Shown here piece after piece: positions 9,973-20,235 of a DNA stretch of 52,448 bases. Under the pieces are notes generated by a model. It was not told the DNA's origin. It ran no database searches and was given only the letters and a program-made list of their open reading frames with translations. The position numbers and the translations under genes were made by a program. The DNA is from Phycisphaerales bacterium (GTDB lineage Bacteria; Planctomycetota; Phycisphaerae; Phycisphaerales; SM1A02): NCBI GenBank assembly GCA_009692045.1, contig SIAA01000012.1, positions 1 through 52,448 of the forward strand, given 5' to 3'. How positions within the stretch are numbered: the first letter of the stretch is position 1; every line of letters starts with the position of its first letter.

Positions 9973-10415
9973 GTACTGGTTGCGCGATCTGCGAGCAACA
10001 TGCCGATCAGGCTGGGCGTGGCCTCGTCGCTTGGGAGGATGATCTCTGGCTGCTTCGACACCACCCTAGTCCCGCTCCTCTGGTGGGTTGGTTGCTGCTC
10101 GATGCCAAGCGGCATGTTGATGGCGCGGCATCCTTCAACTCAGCCGAGCAGAGCGCATTCGGCGCCGTGCTGCAGCGAGCCTGCGCGGCCCTGCGATCGG
10201 CCAGTGGCTGCGAGCGCGTCTACACCATTGCATTCGGGGAGTCAGCTCATCACTTTCACATGCACTTGGTGCCGCGCTCCTCCCAGCAGAAGGGCACATC
10301 AGCCTGGGAGGTCGCTGACTTCTACCGAGAGGTGGTGGCGGAGCGGATTGCGGGAGTAGAACAGGATGCGGCCGCGAGCATGGTCAGCCGGCTGGCGAGG
10401 TTGCTAGCGCTCTAG
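9969..10415 (+). CDS. HIT-family protein
   Basis: The 148-residue protein has a C-terminal histidine triad HFHMHLV (His95, His97, His99), the nucleotide-binding and catalytic motif of HIT hydrolases/transferases. The N-terminal part contains CAIC (5-8), similar to zinc-linked CxxC starts of many HIT proteins, and a WLLLDAKRHVD segment typical of the fold. Members hydrolyse nucleoside phosphoramidates or dinucleoside polyphosphates. The GTG start overlaps the mazG-like stop by four bases, suggesting translational coupling and a shared role in nucleotide clean-up (inference). The 3' end overlaps the convergent flavoprotein gene by 32 bases. Confidence 0.88.
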   Translation: MSTGCAICEQHADQAGRGLVAWEDDLWLLRHHPSPAPLVGWLLLDAKRHVDGAASFNSAEQSAFGAVLQRACAALRSASGCERVYTIAFGESAHHFHMHLVPRSSQQKGTSAWEVADFYREVVAERIAGVEQDAAASMVSRLARLLAL

Positions 10416-11682
10416 CGGCTGCTGTCCCTGCCAGATAGCCGCTGGCCCAAGCCCACTGAAAGTTGAAGCCGCCGATTCGTCCGTCAACATCGAGAACCTC
10501 GCCGCACAAATACAATCCCGACGTGCGCCGACTCTCCATGGTGCCTAGATCAACCTCGCTGAGCGGTACCCCTCCCGCGGTGACTTCCGCGTAGTTCCAG
10601 CCTCGATCTCCCGTGACGGGTAGTGGAGTAGAGGTTGCAAGTAGGGCAAGGGTGCGCCGAGCCTCGCGGGAAACCTGCCTCGGTGTGCTGCTGTAAGGCA
10701 CCTTTGCCTGATGGCAAATGGCGCGGGCGAATCGTTCCGGCCACTGCTCCTGCAGGTAGGAACCGATACCGCGCGAATTGATGGCCAGCAAATCGGCATC
10801 GAATGCCTCGGCATCGGCGCACTTACTCCAGTTGACACTCAATGAGGTCTGGGAGTCGTTGATCACAGCGTGGCGCCAGTGACGACTCATGTCAAGGACG
10901 GCTGGTCCGCTGATCCCGAAGTGAGTACACAGCACACTGCCTTCGATGACGAGTGGTCTGGTCCCCGGCGTGCGCAGTATCAGGCCTGCGTTGATGCTGA
11001 TCCCTGCGAGAGCAGTGATCCAGTGGGAGGATGGCAGCAGAAGAGGAACGAGGGCAGGGACAACATGGGGAGTAGATGTGTGACCTAAAGTTTGAGCGAT
11101 TGCGAGTCCGGAACCATCCGAACCAGATTTGGGAAGGCTGCAGCCGCCGGCCGCCAACACCACCCGCTGGGCGGCGATACATCCGAACTCGCCCCGCAGC
11201 AGAAATCCGCCGCCGCGCTGCGGTGGGAGTACCTCGCATGAGGCAACCCGCGCGGGGTGAATCAGAGTGACACCCGTGCTAGTGGCTGCGGTAACGAGGG
11301 CATCCAGGACCGTTTTCGCGCTGTCTGTGACCGGAAACAGCTTGCCCGTTTCCTCGCGCTTCAACTCAACGCCTAGATCGCGAAAGAACTGAACTGTTTT
11401 GTCAACCGGGAAGGATCGCAGCACCAGACGCCGCGCCGCCGGTGTTGAACCCCAGAAGTCGCGTTCACTTACAGAGTGGTGGGTCACATTGCAGCGGCCG
11501 CCCCCGGCAACGAGAATCTTTGCACCCAGAGACCTGGCTGCGTCAAGCGCCAGCAGTTTCAGCGGTACCCCCGCCTGCGAGGCAGTCCTACCCGCCCAAA
11601 TCGCCGCAAAGAGACCAGCCGCACCGGCTCCGATTATGCAGATGTCACAGGCATCAGAGTCGTGGATGGGTGATGTAGGCAT
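10384..11682 (-). CDS. BaiN/HI0933-family flavoprotein (NAD(P)/FAD-dependent oxidoreductase)
   Basis: The 432-residue protein opens with an FAD-binding Rossmann motif (CIIGAGAAGLFAA, GxGxxG at 18-23). Further family marks are KILVAGGGRCNVTH near residues 58-71 and, near the C terminus, GRIGGFNFQWAWASGYLAG. This is the pattern of the HI0933/YhiN/BaiN family, whose physiological substrates are mostly unknown. The ATG at 11682 was chosen because it lies seven bases after the upstream M14 stop, whereas the open frame beyond it would overlap that gene. It is the last gene of the minus-strand run that starts with recG. The 3' end overlaps the convergent HIT gene by 32 bases. Confidence 0.9.
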   Translation of the reverse strand: MPTSPIHDSDACDICIIGAGAAGLFAAIWAGRTASQAGVPLKLLALDAARSLGAKILVAGGGRCNVTHHSVSERDFWGSTPAARRLVLRSFPVDKTVQFFRDLGVELKREETGKLFPVTDSAKTVLDALVTAATSTGVTLIHPARVASCEVLPPQRGGGFLLRGEFGCIAAQRVVLAAGGCSLPKSGSDGSGLAIAQTLGHTSTPHVVPALVPLLLPSSHWITALAGISINAGLILRTPGTRPLVIEGSVLCTHFGISGPAVLDMSRHWRHAVINDSQTSLSVNWSKCADAEAFDADLLAINSRGIGSYLQEQWPERFARAICHQAKVPYSSTPRQVSREARRTLALLATSTPLPVTGDRGWNYAEVTAGGVPLSEVDLGTMESRRTSGLYLCGEVLDVDGRIGGFNFQWAWASGYLAGTAAARALATSPAG

Positions 11683-11689
11683 GCCTGAG

Positions 11690-13501
11690 TCAAGGCTTCG
11701 CCGCGTTCTCAGCGAGCATGACTTCCTGAGTGAGGTCAACCGCTTTCTCTGCCGTGTATGTCACTGTCGCCTTTGTTCCGGCTTGACCCTGCACGATGAA
11801 CCTAAAGAGACGACTGGATAGACCGGGAATGCCGCTCTGCAACAGCAGCCGCGCTGGTCGGTAGCGCACGGCCTCCATGGTGCGGTCAGTGCGATCGTCC
11901 AGTTCACCCGCCGATACGACCTGCACACCGGTGCCGAGTAACTCAAGGCGATCGGGCTGGCCAATGCGTTTCTGAGCAGCCCGGGCGGTGCGCGATGAAA
12001 TGGGGCGATCATTGAAAACCTCGACATCAATCTGCCACAGGCCATCGGGCAAAGCCTTCACCGCAGCCGGCGCCATTCGCAGCAGCGGCATGCACTGAGC
12101 GTGATAGGTCGTGAAGGCGAAGTTGCGGTGGCTCTCCTCCTCCAACATGAACGGCGGGGGGATGCGGCTCGACCATTTGTCGCCGCCTCCAACGAGCACG
12201 GTGCCGTAGTCGGGATGAGGCACCTCTTTCCAGTCAGAGAACGTCTGACCCAGGAGCATTCGGTCGGTCCAGCGCATGTCCGCCGCCTCGTCCGGCGCCT
12301 GACCACTCTGCAATATGCGTTGCTCAGTCCAGAGTTCATTGGTGAGACTGATGATGCCCAGGCCCTCCGCGGTCCAGTTCACGAATCCACCTCGCACTGG
12401 GTAAAGATCGCTGTGGATGACCATCGATCGGTAGAAGGGGAGCATCTCCACACCAGCGGTTTGGATCGTCTGGTAGGTCGTCTTGTCAGCTGCGGGATAC
12501 TCGCCCTCGCGGCTCGGGTGACCAGGCCCTCGCAGAATCATTCCGCCAGCATTGTGATAGCTCTGAACTGCGGCGATGTTGGGATGCCGGAGAATGAACT
12601 GGGCTATCGCCTGGGTTTCCGGCCAGCACAGCGGCCACTTTCCTGCGCCATCCTGCACAAACTCTGGTTGCCAATCGCTGGGCCAGTTGCGATTCATGTC
12701 GTAACCACCGAGTCCGTCCTCATTGCTGCGGCCATCAGCATCGTTGTCAATGCCCTCCGAACCCGCCATCGACCAGTCCCCGTGTCGGACCGTGCCATCA
12801 GGAAGAACTTCGCGCGCAACATATTCAAAAATGCGGGGATCATCCACCTTGCGGCGATGAGTTCCATTGGGATCGCGCCGCCACATCATGCCGACCGACC
12901 CATCGCCATCCAGATCGTCGGGTCCATCTTCATCGCAAACTCCGTCACGATCATCATCGATGGGCGCCTGTCCGGTTCTGCTGGAGTGGCTGCTGCTGGG
13001 ACCGCGGAACCAGCCGTCGCGTCCGTCCGGATTCACGCTGACCATGAAGTAAAAGGCGCATCTATCCACGAGTGCCTTCACATCAGGCACCTGGTCGTAG
13101 CCACTGGTCAGATACCAGAGCGAGTAAAGCACCACCTCACTTGCTTGAATCTCGTTTCCATGAATGTTGCCGTCGATCCACATGGCAGGTTTGCTGGTGT
13201 CGATCCCCGTTTGTGAATTGTTGAGGGTTGCAACCAGCAGCGGCCGACCCTGCACGCTGCTGCCGATCTGCTCGATAGAAAGGAGAGAGGGGTAGGCGGT
13301 TGCGAGTTTCCGCACCATGTCGTTGAGCTCCTCGGAGGAGTAGAAACGATTGAATGCAATGGGAACTCTGGAGGTGATCTGCTGCTGCGCGTGAGCCGGG
13401 CTGCAAAGCAGCAGGAGAGGAACAATCAGTGCGGTGAATCCTTGCGACTGCGATGCCACTGCAGCGAAGCTCTGGACGATGGATCGGTTCATCAAATACA
13501 T
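11690..13501 (-). CDS. Secreted M14 zinc carboxypeptidase with Asp-rich insert
   Basis: The 603-residue protein has an N-terminal signal peptide ending about SPAHAQ (residue 39). The M14 fold keeps all key residues: zinc ligands H114 and E117 (DGNIHGNE) and H316 (QSYHNAGG), substrate-binding N270-R271 (YDMNRNW), and catalytic E389 (LTNELW). Between the second strand and MNRN lies an insert with repeated DxDxDG-like runs (DDDRDGVCDEDG, DLDGDG, DNDADG), similar to calcium-binding loops. The C-terminal 200 residues form a separate, probably beta-rich domain. The protein should trim C-terminal residues from peptides in the cell envelope. ATG 13501 overlaps the previous stop by one base; a second ATG three codons on (13492) is also possible. 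It is paired with an inactive paralogue just upstream. Confidence 0.9.
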   Translation of the reverse strand: MYLMNRSIVQSFAAVASQSQGFTALIVPLLLLCSPAHAQQQITSRVPIAFNRFYSSEELNDMVRKLATAYPSLLSIEQIGSSVQGRPLLVATLNNSQTGIDTSKPAMWIDGNIHGNEIQASEVVLYSLWYLTSGYDQVPDVKALVDRCAFYFMVSVNPDGRDGWFRGPSSSHSSRTGQAPIDDDRDGVCDEDGPDDLDGDGSVGMMWRRDPNGTHRRKVDDPRIFEYVAREVLPDGTVRHGDWSMAGSEGIDNDADGRSNEDGLGGYDMNRNWPSDWQPEFVQDGAGKWPLCWPETQAIAQFILRHPNIAAVQSYHNAGGMILRGPGHPSREGEYPAADKTTYQTIQTAGVEMLPFYRSMVIHSDLYPVRGGFVNWTAEGLGIISLTNELWTEQRILQSGQAPDEAADMRWTDRMLLGQTFSDWKEVPHPDYGTVLVGGGDKWSSRIPPPFMLEEESHRNFAFTTYHAQCMPLLRMAPAAVKALPDGLWQIDVEVFNDRPISSRTARAAQKRIGQPDRLELLGTGVQVVSAGELDDRTDRTMEAVRYRPARLLLQSGIPGLSSRLFRFIVQGQAGTKATVTYTAEKAVDLTQEVMLAENAAKP

Positions 13502-15438
13502 CAGCGAGCCTCCGGAATCGTAGTTAGGGCCGCGGCAGGGAAGGAGCGCACCTTGCCGCCTTGAATGGTCAGGGATTGCGGCTGCGATAGAGGGAAGTCC
13601 ATGCTGACGGTGATTAGCTCCTCAGGAGCTGCTCGAACGATCCACGAGGCATCTTCACGGCCACTGGAACCGGCAAGTCGGTTGATAATGATGGTGGGGC
13701 GACCTGCCACGATGCGATCTACCGGGACAGAGATGCGCAGATTGATCGGCCGAGGCACTCGGTTCGTCACGCCCATTTTGGTTGCGGTTGGAAACGCTCC
13801 ATCATTGATGATGGCTAGATCGATGCGGTAGAGACCCGGTGCCAGTGTCGTGACTACCGGTACATCGCAGCGCACTAGCGGTGAGCGCCGCGCAAGGTCA
13901 CTGATGAGAGCCGCTGCATGGGCGCTGGCGGCAGCCACATCGCTGGCGGGAATCTCGGTGCGCGCTCCCCCTCGGAAGCCGCCGATTTCAACCTCCCCCT
14001 GGGTCGGGTGCGAGAATGACTTCCATGGAGCGAATCTGCTCGATACGCCCTCGGAGTCAAACCATGTGAGCCACGCGGCTGCTTCTTCATCAAAGGCTTT
14101 GGAGGCATCGCTCGCAGGAGGAGGAACAGACTCCCCGGGGCGCCCCGATCTTCTTCCTCTACCACCACCCGCGCGACCACCGCCACCGGGTGGGCGACCC
14201 TGCCCTCTTGCTTCAGGGGCGGTTGGTTCGGCGGCAGGATCGACTGCTGGCGGCGCGACTGCCGAGGCGAGCGTTTGTGGCGGCGCATCAGGCGCATGAT
14301 CCGTGGCACCAGCATCCACCGCTGCCGGTTCAGGGGGCTTGGGGTCGGGTCTTCCCCAGAGTTGACATCCGAAGGCAGGAATCCCGCGGTGCTGGTAGGC
14401 CCACAGAATGAACGACCCATGCAGATCCGAGTCAGCGGCGCGCGACTGCTTGGAGGTCTCTTTCCAGAACTTGGCCACCTCGCCGTAGAGCGAGGCATCT
14501 CCCGAGTCGAGAGCGAGAGGGCCATCGGCATCGCGCGTTGACGAGTCGGGCAGTTTCACCAGAGTGTCATTGCGGCCGAGCACCAAGATGGAGCAGATGT
14601 TGCCATGATCGGCGACGAAACTGGCCAGCGTCCTCGACTCTGGCTCGCTCAGAGCGTAAGGGCCGGAGTCAACCTCGAACTCGCGCCACTTCGCAGGGAA
14701 GTTGCGATCTGGATCAACTCCACCTTGAGGGTCCTCTCCGAGCAAGCCATCCCCATCACTGTCCGCGGCCTCCACTGCGATTGACCACACCGCCACTTCA
14801 CCCTTGTCATGATCGGCAAGCTTGAGAAGTCGCTGGTCTCTTGGATCAGACATCCAAGATGCCGCTCCCTCGCCAGCGGGGGGGTTGCTGCGACGGATGG
14901 TGGTGATCGCTCCATCACCATCAAGGTCACGCGGAGGATCTTCATCGAAAGCCCCATCGGAGTCATTGTCGATTGCGCGGGCATTTCGGGCGGCGAGTTC
15001 CGGCGGAAGTGAGGCGCCGCGATCGAAGGCATCGGGATTCCCAATCGGCACTATATAGATGGTGTAATCGGCGATGGTTCGATCATGGGGATCGGCCACC
15101 AGCGACTCGGCGGCGGCGACAGCGGCTGCAGCGCTGGTTCGATGATGTCCATCCATGCCGGCGACCACCAGAACTGCCGGCCGAGAGTCAGCGCGTTGCT
15201 GGTCTTCACTGAGAGTCATCATGCGAATGGCTGAGCCCGCGGCGCTGCTTCCGATCGTGGAGACCCTGATTGCTCCCGGATATCTGCTGGCCACACGATC
15301 GATGTCTGCCTGGATCGACGCTGTTGTGGTCTGAGCGCTGGCAGGGAGAACCTGCAACACGGCAACAGTGAGCGCGAGTGCTGCGGCGATCTGCTTCGGG
15401 CTAGTGAGAAAGCAAGGGCAAGTGGGCAGGTGTTTCAT
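13501..15438 (-). CDS. Catalytically dead M14 peptidase paralogue, secreted
   Basis: The 645-residue protein has a signal peptide (cleavage near LPASAQ, residue 36) and aligns with the downstream M14 peptidase: IGSSAAGSAIRMMTL matches IGSSVQGRPLLVATL, and the DxDxDG insert is shared (DNDSDGAFDEDP, DLDGDG, DSDGDG). The active site is lost. The zinc motif DGNIHGNE reads AGMDGHHR here (H to G97, E to R100), the third zinc His is replaced in LVLGRND (about G288), and the catalytic Glu is Gln359 (GCQLW for TNELW). Arg245 (PDRNFP) remains. A Pro/Ala/Gly-rich low-complexity stretch (about 365-440, with GGGRGRR runs) precedes a C-terminal beta-rich domain. It likely binds peptide or acts as a partner for its active neighbour; this is inference. 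Confidence 0.85.
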   Translation of the reverse strand: MKHLPTCPCFLTSPKQIAAALALTVAVLQVLPASAQTTTASIQADIDRVASRYPGAIRVSTIGSSAAGSAIRMMTLSEDQQRADSRPAVLVVAGMDGHHRTSAAAAVAAAESLVADPHDRTIADYTIYIVPIGNPDAFDRGASLPPELAARNARAIDNDSDGAFDEDPPRDLDGDGAITTIRRSNPPAGEGAASWMSDPRDQRLLKLADHDKGEVAVWSIAVEAADSDGDGLLGEDPQGGVDPDRNFPAKWREFEVDSGPYALSEPESRTLASFVADHGNICSILVLGRNDTLVKLPDSSTRDADGPLALDSGDASLYGEVAKFWKETSKQSRAADSDLHGSFILWAYQHRGIPAFGCQLWGRPDPKPPEPAAVDAGATDHAPDAPPQTLASAVAPPAVDPAAEPTAPEARGQGRPPGGGGRAGGGRGRRSGRPGESVPPPASDASKAFDEEAAAWLTWFDSEGVSSRFAPWKSFSHPTQGEVEIGGFRGGARTEIPASDVAAASAHAAALISDLARRSPLVRCDVPVVTTLAPGLYRIDLAIINDGAFPTATKMGVTNRVPRPINLRISVPVDRIVAGRPTIIINRLAGSSGREDASWIVRAAPEELITVSMDFPLSQPQSLTIQGGKVRSFPAAALTTIPEAR

Positions 15439-15446
15439 CTAGGTAT

Positions 15447-16151
15447 TCACATCTCGGTGTGGAGGTTGGCCTCGTCCATCAAGTAAAGTCCGATGAGCCA
15501 CTTTTCCACGATATAGGGCTCGATTCGCAGAATGCCAGTCACAGTACCGTAGCGAATGGTGTGGCGCTTGCTGCTGTCAACGGCGCTGGTCAGGGCGACT
15601 TCGATAGCGTCATAGGGAGTGGGCGGTACGCCGATACAGCACCCATCCCATTGGTTGAGCATGCACAGCAGCTCGTCGGACTCAGTGGCGATGAGGGGGA
15701 AGGCAACATATCCGCTGATGCGCACCCACTGTCCCTGCATCATGGCAATGCGCTCGGGGATCAGCCTTTCCCCGAGGCGCGGGATGAAGGTATCTCCGGC
15801 GCTCATCAGGTAGTCCCAGTTGAGTTCGAACGGATTCTCTTTGCTGCCATCGCCGTGAAATGTCCACTTGCCATCCGCCAAGGTTGAACCGTCTGCCTGT
15901 ACCTCAAGTTTGCTGGGAATGATCGTGGCACCGGGGACTGTTCCCCGTGCGGGCGGTGGAGACTTCGCGGGCGTTGACGGCGCCGCATCAGGTGCGTGCA
16001 CCGCATTTGGCGCCCCGGGAATCACGCTGCTGTTCGGCGCTGCCGGGTCGATCAGGCCGGGGGTGCGCGCTTGATTGAACATCGAGGAACCCACGAAGTA
16101 GGCGGCAACTGCAGCTGCAATGATGATGGCGATGGCGAGGGCTCGCGGCAT
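15447..16151 (-). CDS. Membrane-anchored DUF3299 protein
   Basis: The 234-residue protein has one N-terminal membrane helix (about 4-22), a Pro/Ala-rich linker to about residue 75, and a C-terminal globular domain. The domain shows ISGYVAFP, then a double cysteine in WDGCCIGVPPTPYDAIEV (Cys171-172), the mark of DUF3299. Proteins of this family often lie beside a LolD/MacB-like ATPase and an FtsX-type permease, and that context is linked to zinc in Vibrio (the Zrg system, as I recall it). The same arrangement occurs here: the permease stop is three bases upstream. The two cysteines could bind metal. The exact role is unknown. Confidence 0.8.
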   Translation of the reverse strand: MPRALAIAIIIAAAVAAYFVGSSMFNQARTPGLIDPAAPNSSVIPGAPNAVHAPDAAPSTPAKSPPPARGTVPGATIIPSKLEVQADGSTLADGKWTFHGDGSKENPFELNWDYLMSAGDTFIPRLGERLIPERIAMMQGQWVRISGYVAFPLIATESDELLCMLNQWDGCCIGVPPTPYDAIEVALTSAVDSSKRHTIRYGTVTGILRIEPYIVEKWLIGLYLMDEANLHTEM

Positions 16152-16154
16152 GGC

Positions 16155-17447
16155 TTACCCGAGGGGCCGCAGATTGTCGGCGACGCTGGTTCGGTAGGCG
16201 CGGGCAGCGGGAATCACACCGGCCAAGCATGCCAGTGCGATGGCACCTCCGGTCACAGCAGCCAAAGTGCCGGCCTCCAGAGTTGGATCAATCACCAACC
16301 CTACCTTTGCTCGCAGCGCGTCAGCGGCAGCCATCGCCGCAAAGTGAGCCATCGCCAATCCGGCCGCCGACCCAGCGAGTCCAATGAGAGCACTCTCACT
16401 CAGAATCAGCATGAACACGCGCATCTGGCTCGCTCCGAGCACGCGGATGATCGCCACCTGGCGGCGGCGGAGATCCATTGAGTTGTACAGAGCCAACAGG
16501 ATCGCCACCGAACTGGAGAGCAGTACCGCGATGCCCAGAGCTATGAATAGTGAGTCGATGTCACCGACTATGCGGAACAGTTTGTCGACCTGATCAGCTG
16601 GCATGGCCACGGTAATGCTGGTGTCTCGCCTCAGCCGATCGAACTGCCCCTGCATGGCCGCCGTCGCATCGCGGCCCGGCCGAGTGGGGAGCCGTAGCAT
16701 TGCTCCGGTGATCTTGCGGTCCTCATCGGTGAGGTCATGCGCATCGACATGGGCGTGATCGTGTCCATCATGATCAACATGATCATCATGCTCGCGCTCG
16801 GCCCGATCCTCGGCGTGGATGATCCAGGTGCTCTCTAGGTCAGTGAACAGGGCCCGATCATGAGCACTGGCCGTGGGAGCAAGAACTCCCACTACCTCAT
16901 AGAGATGATCGGCATGCTCGTGTCCACCTTCACCACTCCATGCCCCGTGCGTCAGGGCGATGCGGTCTCCTAGGTGCAATCCAAAGTCCCGCGCTGCCTG
17001 CGCCCCCGCAACCACCTGGAAGTTGCTGGCGAAAGGCACACCTTCGGCGAACTGCCAGGACTCACCCACCGCAGGCTGAAAGCGCGAGAAGAACTCAGTC
17101 GTTGTCGCCATCACCGGTGCGCCGCGATAGGAATCACCCAGTTGGGTAGGAATGCACCACTCCCAGGGGAATGACTCCTTCAGGCTCTGGAACTGCTGCC
17201 AAAGCAGCGGATTGGCAGGGGGATTGGCATAGAAGACGCCGTTGAGAACCGCAACAAGTGGACTGGCATCGGCGCTCACCAGTAGATGCATGTTCCCGGT
17301 GCCGCGCCGAAACGATTGCTGCGCCGAGGAGCGCATGGAAAGCAATACCAAAAGAATCGCCACGGATACTCCCACCATGAGAGTCGTGACGCAGCTGGAG
17401 AAGGCACGCAGGCGCAGACTGCGAATAATGAAGGAGAGCCAACTCAC
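16155..17447 (-). CDS. FtsX/MacB-type ABC permease with His-rich loop
   Basis: The 430-residue protein has an N-terminal membrane helix (about 16-38), a large extracytoplasmic region (about 40-300) and three C-terminal helices, with the cytoplasmic segment YNSMDLRRRQVAIIRVLGAS between them. This is the FtsX-like permease layout. The extracytoplasmic part holds GGHEHADH (174-181) and a dense His/Asp stretch at 211-237 (HDDHVDHDGHDHAHVDAHD), which looks like a divalent-metal-binding loop. Family members act as mechanotransmitters or lipoprotein/peptide exporters. With the DUF3299 neighbour, a zinc-linked function is likely but unproven. It overlaps the ATPase gene by four bases. Confidence 0.9.
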   Translation of the reverse strand: MSWLSFIIRSLRLRAFSSCVTTLMVGVSVAILLVLLSMRSSAQQSFRRGTGNMHLLVSADASPLVAVLNGVFYANPPANPLLWQQFQSLKESFPWEWCIPTQLGDSYRGAPVMATTTEFFSRFQPAVGESWQFAEGVPFASNFQVVAGAQAARDFGLHLGDRIALTHGAWSGEGGHEHADHLYEVVGVLAPTASAHDRALFTDLESTWIIHAEDRAEREHDDHVDHDGHDHAHVDAHDLTDEDRKITGAMLRLPTRPGRDATAAMQGQFDRLRRDTSITVAMPADQVDKLFRIVGDIDSLFIALGIAVLLSSSVAILLALYNSMDLRRRQVAIIRVLGASQMRVFMLILSESALIGLAGSAAGLAMAHFAAMAAADALRAKVGLVIDPTLEAGTLAAVTGGAIALACLAGVIPAARAYRTSVADNLRPLG

Positions 17448-18109
17448 TGCGAGTTCCCTTGGCGCGCGGCGGCGATGCAGGTGGTGAAGCGGCGAGCAAC
17501 TTCAGGATCATGACTGGCACATAGAAGAGCTGCACCGCTGGCTCGGCAGGTCTCCTGCAGCAGAGTCAGGGCGGCATCGCGGTTCACCGGGTCGAGGCTG
17601 GCGGTCGGTTCGTCGGCGAGCACCAGTGTCGGTCGAGCGGCTACCGCCCGTGCCACCGCGACGCGCTGCTGCTGTCCAACGCTAAGGCGATCAACGAGCG
17701 CATCTACACGCTCTACACCGAGCTTCGTCAGGAGAGACTGAGCGCGTTCACGGTGTTCACTGCGGGGAAGGCCGCTGAAGCGGAGCGCTAGAAGGATATT
17801 TTCCAAGGCCGAAAACCCCTGCAAGAGGTTGAACACCTGAAACACCATGCCGATGGAACGACCTCGGAATCGGTCACGCGCGGCCCCGCGCAGCGTTCCG
17901 ATCTGAACTCCATTCACAGCAATCGATCCGCTGTGGGGTGACTCAAGCCCAGCAACTAGATTCAGGAATGTGCTCTTTCCCGTGCCGCTGCTCCCTAGGA
18001 GCAAAGCCTGTTCACCGGGAGCCAGAGCCACATCGGCGAAGGCCATTGAGGGGCCATTTGCATAGCAAAATGTCACGCCAGAGGTGTCCAGCACGGTCGG
18101 ATTGGGCAT
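17444..18109 (-). CDS. ABC transporter ATP-binding protein (LolD/MacB-like)
   Basis: The 221-residue single-domain ATPase contains Walker A (GSSGTGKS, 39-46), Q-loop region (GMVFQVFNLL), signature (LSVGQQQRV), Walker B (LVLADEPT) and the switch His (LLCASHD). The signature has V in place of the usual first G (LSVGQ for LSGGQ). The spacing and the FNLL sequence place it with the LolD/MacB/FtsE group that pairs with FtsX-type permeases. Its stop overlaps the permease start by four bases, so they should form a complex. It starts 11 bases after the recG stop and is probably part of the same transcript. Confidence 0.93.
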   Translation of the reverse strand: MPNPTVLDTSGVTFCYANGPSMAFADVALAPGEQALLLGSSGTGKSTFLNLVAGLESPHSGSIAVNGVQIGTLRGAARDRFRGRSIGMVFQVFNLLQGFSALENILLALRFSGLPRSEHRERAQSLLTKLGVERVDALVDRLSVGQQQRVAVARAVAARPTLVLADEPTASLDPVNRDAALTLLQETCRASGAALLCASHDPEVARRFTTCIAAARQGNSQ

Positions 18110-18120
18110 CGCGGGCGATC

Positions 18121-20235
18121 CTACCCAACCCCTGCTAGCCCGAGGGCATTGCCATACGCGCGCATGAGGATTTGCCGGATCGGCACCTCAGTAGGTTCTG
18201 CCAACCGCGGGCTCCGCTCAATCCACTGCCGGGCATCCTCGCGCGCGGCCTCCAGGAGAGCCAAGTCTTGCTCGATATCTGCAACCTTGAAAGGTGGAAG
18301 TCCTGATTGCCGCTGACCGAGGGCCTCACCCGGTCCCCGCAAACTCAAGTCCAGTTCACCGATCCGGAATCCATCAGTTGTGGTAGCGATGGCATCGAGC
18401 CGGGCTCGTGCATCATCAGTAACTGGATCTCCAAGAAACACACACAAACTCGGTTTGCTCCCGCGCCCTATGCGCCCCCGAAGTTGATGCAACTGTGCCA
18501 GACCGAATCGCTCGGCGTGCTCCACCACCATGAGGGTGGCTTCGGGGACATCGATACCGACTTCAACTACCACGGTCGCCACTAGAACCTGACACTCACC
18601 GCAGGCGAACTGACGCATCACTTCATCGCGCTCGGCTGGGGGCATGCGCCCATGTAGCTGACCGATGCGCACGCCCCGGAACGCTCCCGTTGCCAATAGC
18701 TGCGCATGGGTTCCCACCGCCTTCAATCCCGCTGCAGATTCCTCGACCGCAGGGACAATGACATAGGCACGCTCTCCGCCGTCAAGACGCCGCCTGACAT
18801 AGGCGTAAGCCTCGCTCGATCGCGCTGATTCCAAGACTCGCGTGGCGATTTCCATGCGCCCGGGCAAGCGCCCGCGCATGGTGGAGACATCGAGGTCACC
18901 CAGGAATGCCAAGGCAAGAGTGCGCGGAATGGGTGTGGCAGTCATCACAAGAACATGGGGCGTCGTGGCGTCCTTCCCCTGACTGCGAAGGTGAGCGCGT
19001 TGTTCCACTCCGAAGCGATGCTGTTCGTCGACTACGGCAAGAGCCAGACTGTGAAATGCCACCCCGGTGCTGAGCAGAGCATGGGTGCCGATGGCAATGT
19101 GAGCGGAACCACCGGCGATCGCGGCGCGAACCGCGGCCTTCCCCGCGCCGCTCCTGCCGCCGCTGAGCAGCACGACGCGCACATCGGTGCCGGCGAGCAT
19201 CGCTGAGACTGTGCGGTAGTGCTGCTGGGCCAGGATCTCCGTGGGCGCGATGATGGCAGCCTGATGCCCATGGGCGACTGCGGCAAGCATGCCATAGACC
19301 GCAACGGCAGTCTTGCCGCTGCCAACATCTCCCTGCAAGAGCCGATTCATGGGGCGAGTCGCCGCCAGATCTGCAGCGAGTTCCCTGGTCGCCTTGTCCT
19401 GAGCGGGGGTGAGCGTGAAGGGCAAGCGGGCACGAATGCGCGCCTCGATCGCGGGTGTGATGGGCAGGGAGTGAGCTTGAAGTTCATGATGAATCTGCCA
19501 CCTTCGCATGGCGATCCCCAACTGCAGCACTAGCAACTCGCCATAAGCGATCCGCATCCGCCCCTCGCTCGCCTGCGCCCGCGTGTTCGGCTGATGCAGG
19601 GCTCGGTAGGCAGCGCTCAACTCTAGAAGCTCTCGGGAGGTACGCAGCGATGCGGGCAGAGGATCCACCGTCGATTGGCAGAGCGATTGGAGATTGACGC
19701 TCACCAACTCCTCAATGCGGGTCGACGGCATGCGCTCCGATGCTGGATAGATAGGCTTCAATCGAGCAGTGCGAGGAGGATCAGTCTCTGAACTTGGTTC
19801 CCAAACTGGATTGACCAGCTCCAGGTATGCACCCTGCAGTTTGCCCTTTCCCCGAACGATGCCGCTCACACCGGGATGAAGTTTCCGTGCCATCCACGGT
19901 GCGCGGAACCACACAAGTCGCACTGATCGATCGCTGCACTCAAGCGTCGCCTCGATGCGACCTGACCTTCCTGGAACCGTTCGCACCCGCGCCACACTGC
20001 CACGCAACTGCACGATTGCCCGGGGATCGAGAAGCACGGCCTGTATTGCCTGCTCCACCGTCGACTCGGCCAGCTCATCCTCATATCGGGACGGAGCGTG
20101 AACAAGCAGGTCCATCGCCGTCTCAAAGCCGAGTTCCCTCAGCGCCTTGGCATCCCGCTCGCGTAGTCCAACAAGGCTCTCGAGTGGAGCTGGGGTGAGA
20201 GTCCGAGGCTCGATTGGCTCGTCCGACTGCCCCAT
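18121..20235 (-). CDS. recG: ATP-dependent DNA helicase RecG
   Basis: RecG reverses stalled forks and processes branched DNA. With the ATG at 20235 the protein has 704 residues, a normal length. Order: N-terminal wedge/OB domain (about 60-150), then helicase motifs I (LLQGDVGSGKT, Walker A at 302-309), Ia (APTEILAQQH), II (VVDEQHRFGVEQR, 401-413), III (VMTATPIPRTLALAFLGD) and VI (FGLAQLHQLRGRIGRG). The DEQH box and TATPIPRT are characteristic. The frame stays open 62 codons further upstream, but that part is antisense to xseA and shows no conservation. The start lies 22 bases from the divergent xseA start. It heads a seven-gene minus-strand run. Confidence 0.96.
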   Translation of the reverse strand: MGQSDEPIEPRTLTPAPLESLVGLRERDAKALRELGFETAMDLLVHAPSRYEDELAESTVEQAIQAVLLDPRAIVQLRGSVARVRTVPGRSGRIEATLECSDRSVRLVWFRAPWMARKLHPGVSGIVRGKGKLQGAYLELVNPVWEPSSETDPPRTARLKPIYPASERMPSTRIEELVSVNLQSLCQSTVDPLPASLRTSRELLELSAAYRALHQPNTRAQASEGRMRIAYGELLVLQLGIAMRRWQIHHELQAHSLPITPAIEARIRARLPFTLTPAQDKATRELAADLAATRPMNRLLQGDVGSGKTAVAVYGMLAAVAHGHQAAIIAPTEILAQQHYRTVSAMLAGTDVRVVLLSGGRSGAGKAAVRAAIAGGSAHIAIGTHALLSTGVAFHSLALAVVDEQHRFGVEQRAHLRSQGKDATTPHVLVMTATPIPRTLALAFLGDLDVSTMRGRLPGRMEIATRVLESARSSEAYAYVRRRLDGGERAYVIVPAVEESAAGLKAVGTHAQLLATGAFRGVRIGQLHGRMPPAERDEVMRQFACGECQVLVATVVVEVGIDVPEATLMVVEHAERFGLAQLHQLRGRIGRGSKPSLCVFLGDPVTDDARARLDAIATTTDGFRIGELDLSLRGPGEALGQRQSGLPPFKVADIEQDLALLEAAREDARQWIERSPRLAEPTEVPIRQILMRAYGNALGLAGVG

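Follow-up and report, generated by a model that had tools for sequence, protein, structure and literature searches.

A Zrg-type ABC transporter module adjoins a pair of M14 proteins, one without its catalytic residues, in one family of Phycisphaerales

When genes of two apparently different kinds stand in one tight run, do they serve one task, or are they only neighbors? The question is raised by seven minus-strand genes of a Phycisphaerales bacterium (assembly GCA_009692045.1, 2.17 Mb in 74 contigs). The whole stretch of DNA that was analyzed, called the window here, is contig 32 of that assembly (SIAA01000012.1, 52,448 nucleotides). The run brings together an ATP-binding cassette (ABC) ATPase, a permease, and a DUF3299 protein, which resemble parts of the Zrg system of Vibrio, and two proteins of the M14 carboxypeptidase family, M14a and M14b. 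We find that the order ATPase-permease-DUF3299-M14a-M14b recurs in 19 of 121 genomes of the order, the window included, and that M14a lacks the catalytic residues that M14b retains. With somewhat less than even confidence, we propose that these genes form a composite envelope operon that was made once in one Phycisphaerales family from two modules, elsewhere apart, and whose products work together.

Results

Gene content of the run

The initial annotation, made from the sequence alone, had described a seven-gene run on the minus strand from recG to a BaiN-like flavoprotein gene. All seven genes could be placed, with gaps of 11 bases or less.

17444-18109, minus strand: ABC ATPase, ZrgC-like (LolD/MacB type); Pfam ABC_tran 3e-29; 4-base overlap with the permease gene
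16155-17447 (GTG start), minus strand: permease, ZrgB-like type VII; Pfam FtsX and MacB_PCD; four transmembrane-like segments; MacB-like ectodomain; His-rich loop
15447-16151, minus strand: DUF3299 protein, ZrgE-like; profile and fold match to 4hsp; N-terminal hydrophobic segment
13501-15438, minus strand: M14a, predicted pseudo-carboxypeptidase; Pfam M14; export signal by reading
11690-13501, minus strand: M14b, M14 carboxypeptidase with intact active site; Pfam M14 and catalytic residues; export signal by reading
18121-20235, minus strand: recG, upstream neighbor; RecG by Pfam and NCBIfam, with NF008168 above its cut-off
10384-11682, minus strand: HI0933/BaiN-like flavoprotein, last gene of the run; HI0933_like; TIGR00275 at 343 bits against a cut-off of 184

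In the direction of transcription, from recG to the flavoprotein gene, the gaps are 11, -4, 3, 8, -1, and 7 bases, so that two are overlaps. The gene names given earlier agree with Pfam and NCBIfam (RecG, ABC_tran, FtsX with MacB_PCD, M14 twice, and HI0933_like/TIGR00275), while NCBIfam returned no match for either M14 protein or for the DUF3299 protein. Hydropathy suggests four transmembrane segments and a large ectodomain in the permease and hydrophobic N termini in the DUF3299 protein, M14a, and M14b. By reading, these would be an anchor in the DUF3299 protein and export signals in the M14 proteins; hydropathy alone is not decisive for export because the N terminus of the flavoprotein scores equally high. 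Promoter-like sites (one, 2.4 expected) and terminator-like sites (five, 5.4 expected) show no excess, which is weak evidence for this phylum.

The gene order recurs in one family

The DUF3299 protein, taken as a proxy for the transporter module, and M14a were searched through the same 121 order-level genomes, and the surroundings that were fetched were mapped with profiles of the seven genes. Greedy gene calling was set aside for these maps, as it had taken antisense open reading frames of the M14 and permease genes for genes in many loci. Families and genera carry the labels given by the search tool (f1, g1, and so on). A DUF3299 match was found in 60 genomes, an M14 match in 60 (weak in G039, at 1e-4), and both in 44. 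Among the 19 genomes that have the full order, the contig ends inside M14a in G048, and M14a and M14b are one frame in G099. Within family f1, the DUF3299 and M14 genes are adjacent in 19 of the 23 genomes that have both, across nine genera; in the other four, three of them from g7 and one from g4, the two genes lie apart.

The genes of the linked loci are closely packed. Measured to the start codon nearest the preceding stop, which makes the values lean short, the spacing is -4 between ATPase and permease (19/19), 3 to 96 between permease and DUF3299, -4 to 52 between DUF3299 and M14a, -4 to 7 between M14a and M14b, and -11 to 22 between M14b and the flavoprotein gene.

In a tree of 57 M14b rows, built in quick mode without the G099 fusion and without G048, whose locus is cut by the contig end, the 17 linked rows and three unlinked g7 rows fall into a single clade of 20 (Shimodaira-Hasegawa-like approximate likelihood ratio test, 90). 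Six f1 genomes without DUF3299 group with f4 in this tree, and G013 groups with f2. A single origin of the join, followed by a later break in g7, fits this topology best. The linked M14 lineage was assigned to 22 f1 genomes, 20 from the tree and two (G048 and G099) from position only. All 22 have DUF3299, and none of the eight f1 genomes without DUF3299 carries that lineage (p 1e-4, a value inflated by common ancestry and by linkage in most of the genomes).

A dead copy precedes an intact copy in the M14 pair

The two M14 proteins differ in their active sites. All four catalytic residues (His-Glu-His and the catalytic Glu) are kept in 57/57 rows of M14b. In the M14a alignment, which holds 56 rows after three short pieces of 59 were dropped, no row has the complete set and 52 retain none of it; the M14a of the window lacks all four. 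The dead and active paralogues named in the initial annotation are thus recovered, with 0/4 and 4/4 catalytic residues, respectively. Judged by these positions, M14a would be a member of the M14 sequence family and not an M14 peptidase, while M14b, with two His and one Glu as zinc ligands and the catalytic Glu, has what is expected of one. M14a has a signature of its own at the catalytic places (Asp in 50/56 rows, His in 39/56, and Gly in 53/56), and beyond it a His two residues on (36/56) and an Asp three residues on (55/56). The nearest solved structures of M14b are carboxypeptidases T and A.

Wherever both genes are readable in the order-level loci, they stand side by side with M14a first. 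In G099 (L038 10004-13711), they are fused into a frame of 1235 residues, in which reading revealed no export signal at the junction. Outside the order, the pair is again common. The M14a profile matches 80 of 294 genomes of the phylum (E 1e-20), and 20 loci (L278-L297) were taken by hand from the upper part of these 80; 19 of the genomes lie outside the order, and the twentieth, G010, lies inside it and was already covered. The first M14 copy is without the full catalytic set in 20/20, the second is intact in 18/18 that are fully readable (one second copy is cut, and one partner lies beyond the contig end), and M14a precedes M14b in 19/20, the contig ending first in the remaining locus. As read from these alignments, a dead/active M14 pair with the dead copy first is widespread in many families of Planctomycetota. 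The pairing of M14a with M14b is far more widespread than its link to the pump.

Both M14 proteins of the window (11690-15438) also have DxDxDG-type loops, in which several Asp and Glu are invariant or nearly so (31 rows each), a pattern that suggests calcium binding. In G022 (L139 7734-8717), a genome without a DUF3299 match, a ZnuA-family gene (6e-51) lies directly upstream of the M14a-M14b pair. A plasmid search with M14a returned one archaeal record.

The transporter module is of the Zrg type and lacks ZrgA

That DUF3299 and an ABC pair of this kind sit together in the Zrg system, as the initial annotation had stated, is borne out by the literature and by three plasmid operons. Table 1 of PMC9817125 lists zrgE as DUF3299, zrgB as the permease, and zrgC as the ATPase. 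A plasmid search with DUF3299 gave no match; the permease matched 114 plasmid records, and the three that were inspected, the source of the proteobacterial Zrg-type operons used here, show the gene order DUF2796-ATPase-permease-DUF3299.

A profile of 30 planctomycete permeases (A2) scored 238 to 248 bits against the permeases of these three operons, which are called ZrgB-like from their operon, Vibrio cholerae ZrgB itself standing outside the comparison. Against five FtsX-type paralogues of the own genome, the same profile scored 26 to 70 bits; these are five of seven other FtsX places, the two unscored ones sharing one long frame on contig 45. In a tree, the Zrg-type permeases separate from the own-genome paralogues at 90/91; its branches are long, and its bootstrap had not settled. 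By these comparisons, the ATPase-permease-DUF3299 module belongs to the Zrg family, its permease being nearer to the Zrg type than to other FtsX-type permeases. Among the best 80 of 261 loci, relatives of the permease come from environmental genomes, mostly labeled Phycisphaerales, Planctomycetota, or another planctomycete name, and some of the remaining labels are "uncultured bacterium" or other.

The DUF3299 protein of the window falls just below the Pfam PF11736 cut-off of 22 bits, scoring 20.7 bits by itself and 21.4 when the genome was searched. A family profile (A1) matches 4hsp, the solved structure of PA4066, with E 1.3e-3. The predicted model (predicted local distance difference test, pLDDT, 90.8) has 4hsp at Foldseek rank 1 (E 1.1e-5, with moderate template modeling scores of 0.41/0.52), and Foldseek gave no other match below E 0.001; the weaker next matches include proteins that we take to be of the OB fold. 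The motif W-D-G-C-C-x-G-x-P-P is invariant over 35 rows, and the protein shares one Cys and a PPxP core with four proteobacterial members. Fold and core motif thus assign it to DUF3299 as far as a model and alignments can, though it lies under the Pfam score cut-off.

The permease directly adjoins the best DUF3299 place in 55 of the 60 order-level genomes that have one, and these 55 belong to f1, f2, and f4. The other five places are cut by a contig end (G028 and G120) or have no permease within the stretch (G065, G080, and G098). These last three, all of f2, have a DUF3299 gene without a family permease or ATPase in the fetched stretch (L062, L069, and L078), so the DUF3299 protein can stand apart from its pump. 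At L068 8975-9649 (G000:C19), a second copy of the DUF3299 gene has no ABC pair in its vicinity and stands next to S9 peptidase-like, phosphodiesterase, UbiA, TatD, and DHQ-synthase-like genes, surroundings that presumably resemble the Ebo cluster. DUF3299 copies without ABC genes in other f1 genomes have partly the same surroundings.

The module differs from Zrg in one component. A profile search of the own genome found no ZrgA (DUF2796, PF10986), and across the 121 order-level genomes the ZrgA profile gave four matches at E 1e-3 and one over the cut-off, in a genome without a DUF3299 match. Because ZrgA is absent, we speak of a Zrg-family transporter module and not of a Zrg system.

Fold of the permease and the possibility of FtsEX-like control

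The model of the permease (pLDDT 90.6) matches LolCDE and MacB first, and by fold and sequence together the best matches are LolCDE/LolF, YtrF, and MacB; among the best 50 fold matches listed, FtsX entries stand at ranks 43, 45, and 49. The initial annotation had offered an FtsEX-like model as an alternative, with the ABC pair controlling the wall or peptide hydrolase; in this run, the pair would act as a switch for the M14 proteins by touching them directly. The shared ABC superfamily, these FtsX entries, and the hydrolase that the operon supplies would all suit such control. However, FtsX follows far behind LolCDE and MacB, which makes the alternative weak at the level of family; outside f1, no M14 gene lies near the ABC module, and the closest kinship of M14b, with carboxypeptidases T and A, does not point to the wall. 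We therefore regard FtsEX-like control as very unlikely. The run has the type VII architecture in common with FtsEX, MacAB-TolC, and LolCDE, and we claim membership in none of these, FtsX not being the best match of the permease.

A His-rich permease and the question of metal uptake

The description of the permease as His-rich proved right: one loop has 8 His in 30 residues. At least five His per 30 residues are found in 33 of 55 planctomycete permeases (two short rows dropped), compared with 0/57 M14b, 0/59 M14a, 0/76 DUF3299, and 7/55 ATPase sequences. H178, H196, and H211 of the permease are invariant across 30 rows, H167 and H176 nearly so, and H167, H178, and H211 of the ectodomain are also present in the three proteobacterial Zrg-type permeases.

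A ZnuA-family gene (PF01297) is present in the own genome and in 107 of the 121 order-level genomes; this family includes manganese and iron proteins as well. Zur-box patterns known from other phyla did not match upstream of 40 ABC operons in loci without recG, and a similar set did not match upstream of 20 chosen ZnuA-family genes of the order, so a motif was learned from the upstream regions of those 20 genes (L243-L261 and L262). The candidate operator, GTAGC-N4-GCTAC, occurs with at most one mismatch before 14 of the 20 genes, exactly in 11. In the own assembly, exact copies stand at just two places, both in front of the ZnuA-family gene (G000:C72:19562-19595) and 20 bases from each other; 34 further places match with one mismatch, none on the contig of the window. 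In the window, it is absent at up to one mismatch and at chance level with two (16 against 14.5 expected). The 116 fetched neighborhoods together with the window contain 12 occurrences, all with one mismatch, compared with 72 in simple shuffles of the 116; by position, none of the 12 lies where an ABC or M14 operon begins. A search for a shared operator before the 40 ABC operons gave a best dyad in four loci, with three to four in shuffles. If the dyad is a Zur box and the gene beside it a zinc gene, as we infer in both cases, the operon would lie outside the zinc-starvation response. The absence of the operator is evidence, though not proof, against zinc-starvation control of the operon, and the zinc coupling suggested by the initial annotation thus finds no support in regulation. 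The parts consulted of a paper on the ZepA zinc system of cyanobacteria (PMC10957091) and of a Zur review (PMC6103462) showed no link to the genes of the run.

These results bear on a Zrg-like uptake of zinc or another metal, in which the DUF3299 protein and the permease would capture the metal, and the zinc peptidases would be its clients or would release metal-binding peptides. The closeness of the permease to Zrg-type permeases and the His-rich stretches, rare or nil in the control proteins, are what such uptake would predict, and the ZnuA-family gene upstream of the M14 pair in G022 suits it as well, although that is one genome. However, ZrgA is missing here and exceeds its cut-off in 1 of 121 genomes, a separate ZnuA-family gene is present here and in most of the order, and the exact candidate operator stands only before that gene, at no start of an ABC or M14 operon examined. 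We consider metal uptake as the main task quite unlikely.

Is the join more than a neighborhood?

The two outer genes of the run behave differently. The upstream side is readable in 17 of the 19 linked loci (L034 and L039 are cut too close), with recG present in nine and absent in eight, from four genera. All eight loci without recG keep ATPase-permease-DUF3299-M14a-M14b, and seven keep the flavoprotein gene. We therefore take recG, listed earlier as part of the run and indeed upstream in the window, for a neighbor outside the unit. Of the 18 linked loci that are readable beyond M14b, 17 have the flavoprotein gene there, so it is attached as tightly as the M14 pair, and tight attachment alone is no proof of a shared task.

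The main rival to an envelope unit is a plain neighborhood, in which the M14 pair landed once between the DUF3299 and flavoprotein genes and stayed there without a shared task. Several observations agree with it and weigh against joint work of the two modules. Adjacency of DUF3299 and M14 is limited to f1 among the 121 genomes, and in f2 and f4 it occurs in 0/21 genomes with both genes. In G080 (f2; L115 1-1532 and 8212-11933), about 6.7 kb separate the ATPase-permease pair from the M14 genes, which are on the opposite strand; the only DUF3299 match of that genome is on another contig, with no ABC genes beside it. Presence of DUF3299 and of M14 is independent within families: f1 has 23 genomes with both, five with DUF3299 only, six with M14 only, and two with neither (Fisher p 0.50), and f2 and f4 together have 21, 11, 7, and 2 (p 0.86). 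A strong co-occurrence over all 121 genomes (44, 16, 16, and 45; p 2e-7) vanishes within families; the remaining families, with 44 genomes, contribute no DUF3299 match and three M14 matches. Five f1 genomes (L031, L036, L044, L054, and L060) have DUF3299 and the permease with no M14 match at all, and in L031 the flavoprotein gene follows DUF3299. The equally sticky flavoprotein gene looks unrelated to the rest. Among 294 phylum genomes, 23 match the DUF3299 profile (E 1e-10), and outside the order both profiles match only in G261 and G334, on different contigs; this adds little, since two genomes with both genes hardly test linkage. Loss of zrgE alone had no effect on growth of V. cholerae under zinc chelation, according to PMC9820375. 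Finally, co-transcription, metal binding, and peptidase activity are predictions here, and the alignments are silent on substrate.

Against a plain neighborhood stand the retention of the join in the eight of 17 readable loci without recG and the association of the linked M14 lineage with DUF3299 (22/22 against 0/8, with its inflated p value). We judge a neighborhood without a shared task to be less likely than the composite operon. The suggestion of one common unit accordingly holds within f1 (19/23 adjacent) and fails as a general system, with no adjacency in two sister families; likewise, the order sought in other Planctomycetota recurs in 19 of the 121 genomes and is joined in f1 only.

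Discussion

The composite operon that we tentatively propose is favored by the gene order retained in f1, the block that stays joined without recG, the single clade of the join, the constant order of M14a and M14b, and the natural fusion, together with the Zrg-type relationship, the conserved His of the permease, and the precedent of YbbAP-TesA (PMC12646458). Its first module, composed of the ATPase, the MacB-like permease, and the DUF3299 protein, would be a type VII ABC transporter of the Zrg family without ZrgA, in which the His-rich segment of the permease ectodomain may replace ZrgA as the metal-binding surface. The second would be a constant pair of secreted M14 proteins, a pseudo-peptidase followed by an enzyme; the pseudo-enzyme M14a would most likely form a heterodimer with M14b and steer it. 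The genes are presumably co-transcribed. Most likely, the ABC pair would drive movement of the ectodomain by mechanotransmission and so handle its substrate on the outer side of the inner membrane, be it a metal, a metal-ligand complex or metallophore, or a peptide; the two M14 proteins, perhaps in contact with the permease, would trim the C termini of peptides in the same compartment, akin to the way in which YbbAP hands substrates to TesA.

A related possibility shifts the weight to the M14 proteins. They may be an ancient two-subunit secreted carboxypeptidase of Planctomycetota, with M14a as the obligate partner of M14b, that in one family was recruited in the periplasm by a Zrg-family ABC transporter without ZrgA; the result would be a type VII ABC-peptidase machine with the pseudo-enzyme as adaptor. 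We consider this unlikely as it stands.

ZrgABCDE of Vibrio and PA4063-PA4066 of Pseudomonas share with the run the adjacency of ATPase, permease, and DUF3299, the permease profile, and the fold and motif of DUF3299. A His-rich element is common to both; it is in ZrgA in V. cholerae (PMC9820375) and in the permease loop here. The run differs in having no ZrgA gene, an added M14 pair and flavoprotein gene, and no candidate ZnuA-family operator. In Vibrio, Zrg is described as Zur-regulated and as serving zinc acquisition (PMC9817125 and PMC9820375). In YbbAP-TesA of Escherichia coli, too, the genes of a type VII ABC transporter and of a periplasmic hydrolase stand together (PMC12646458); however, TesA acts on esters and thioesters, whereas M14b is a carboxypeptidase by family, and the parallel here is one of gene order only. 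YbbP, at ranks 32 and 33 of the fold search with target lengths of 799 and 804, is larger than the permease of the window.

Inactive M14 proteins retained in evolution are known in AEBP1, CPXM1/2, domain III of carboxypeptidase D (CPD), and Ecm14. The M14 proteins described in the part of PMC11266112 consulted are animal or fungal, and the inactive domain of CPD is the last of its three peptidase units. The dead copy reported here is bacterial and adjoins its active partner in many families of a phylum. Among the titles and abstract beginnings listed, in lists partly capped and with poor coverage of subscription papers, no bacterial M14 pseudo-peptidase appeared. Those returned for DUF3299 and zrgE are equally silent on the features reported here, which under the same poor coverage is no proof of novelty. 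The parts are of known kinds; what is apparently new is a Zrg branch that lacks ZrgA and has a His-rich permease, the joining of this branch to the M14 pair, and above all the widespread M14 pair itself.

The role of DUF3299 (ZrgE) and the direction of transport by Zrg-family pumps are debated. Zinc import (PMC9820375) is set against metallophore export (PMC11481552), the latter reporting PA4064-4065 of Pseudomonas aeruginosa as a MacB-type exporter of pyochelin-cobalt. The ZrgA-less branch with its His-rich permease is a natural comparison for this question. The most interesting part of the result is the widespread dead/active M14 pair, in which a predicted pseudo-enzyme stands beside its enzyme in many families of one bacterial phylum, and the natural fusion in G099 makes the idea of a heterodimer directly testable.

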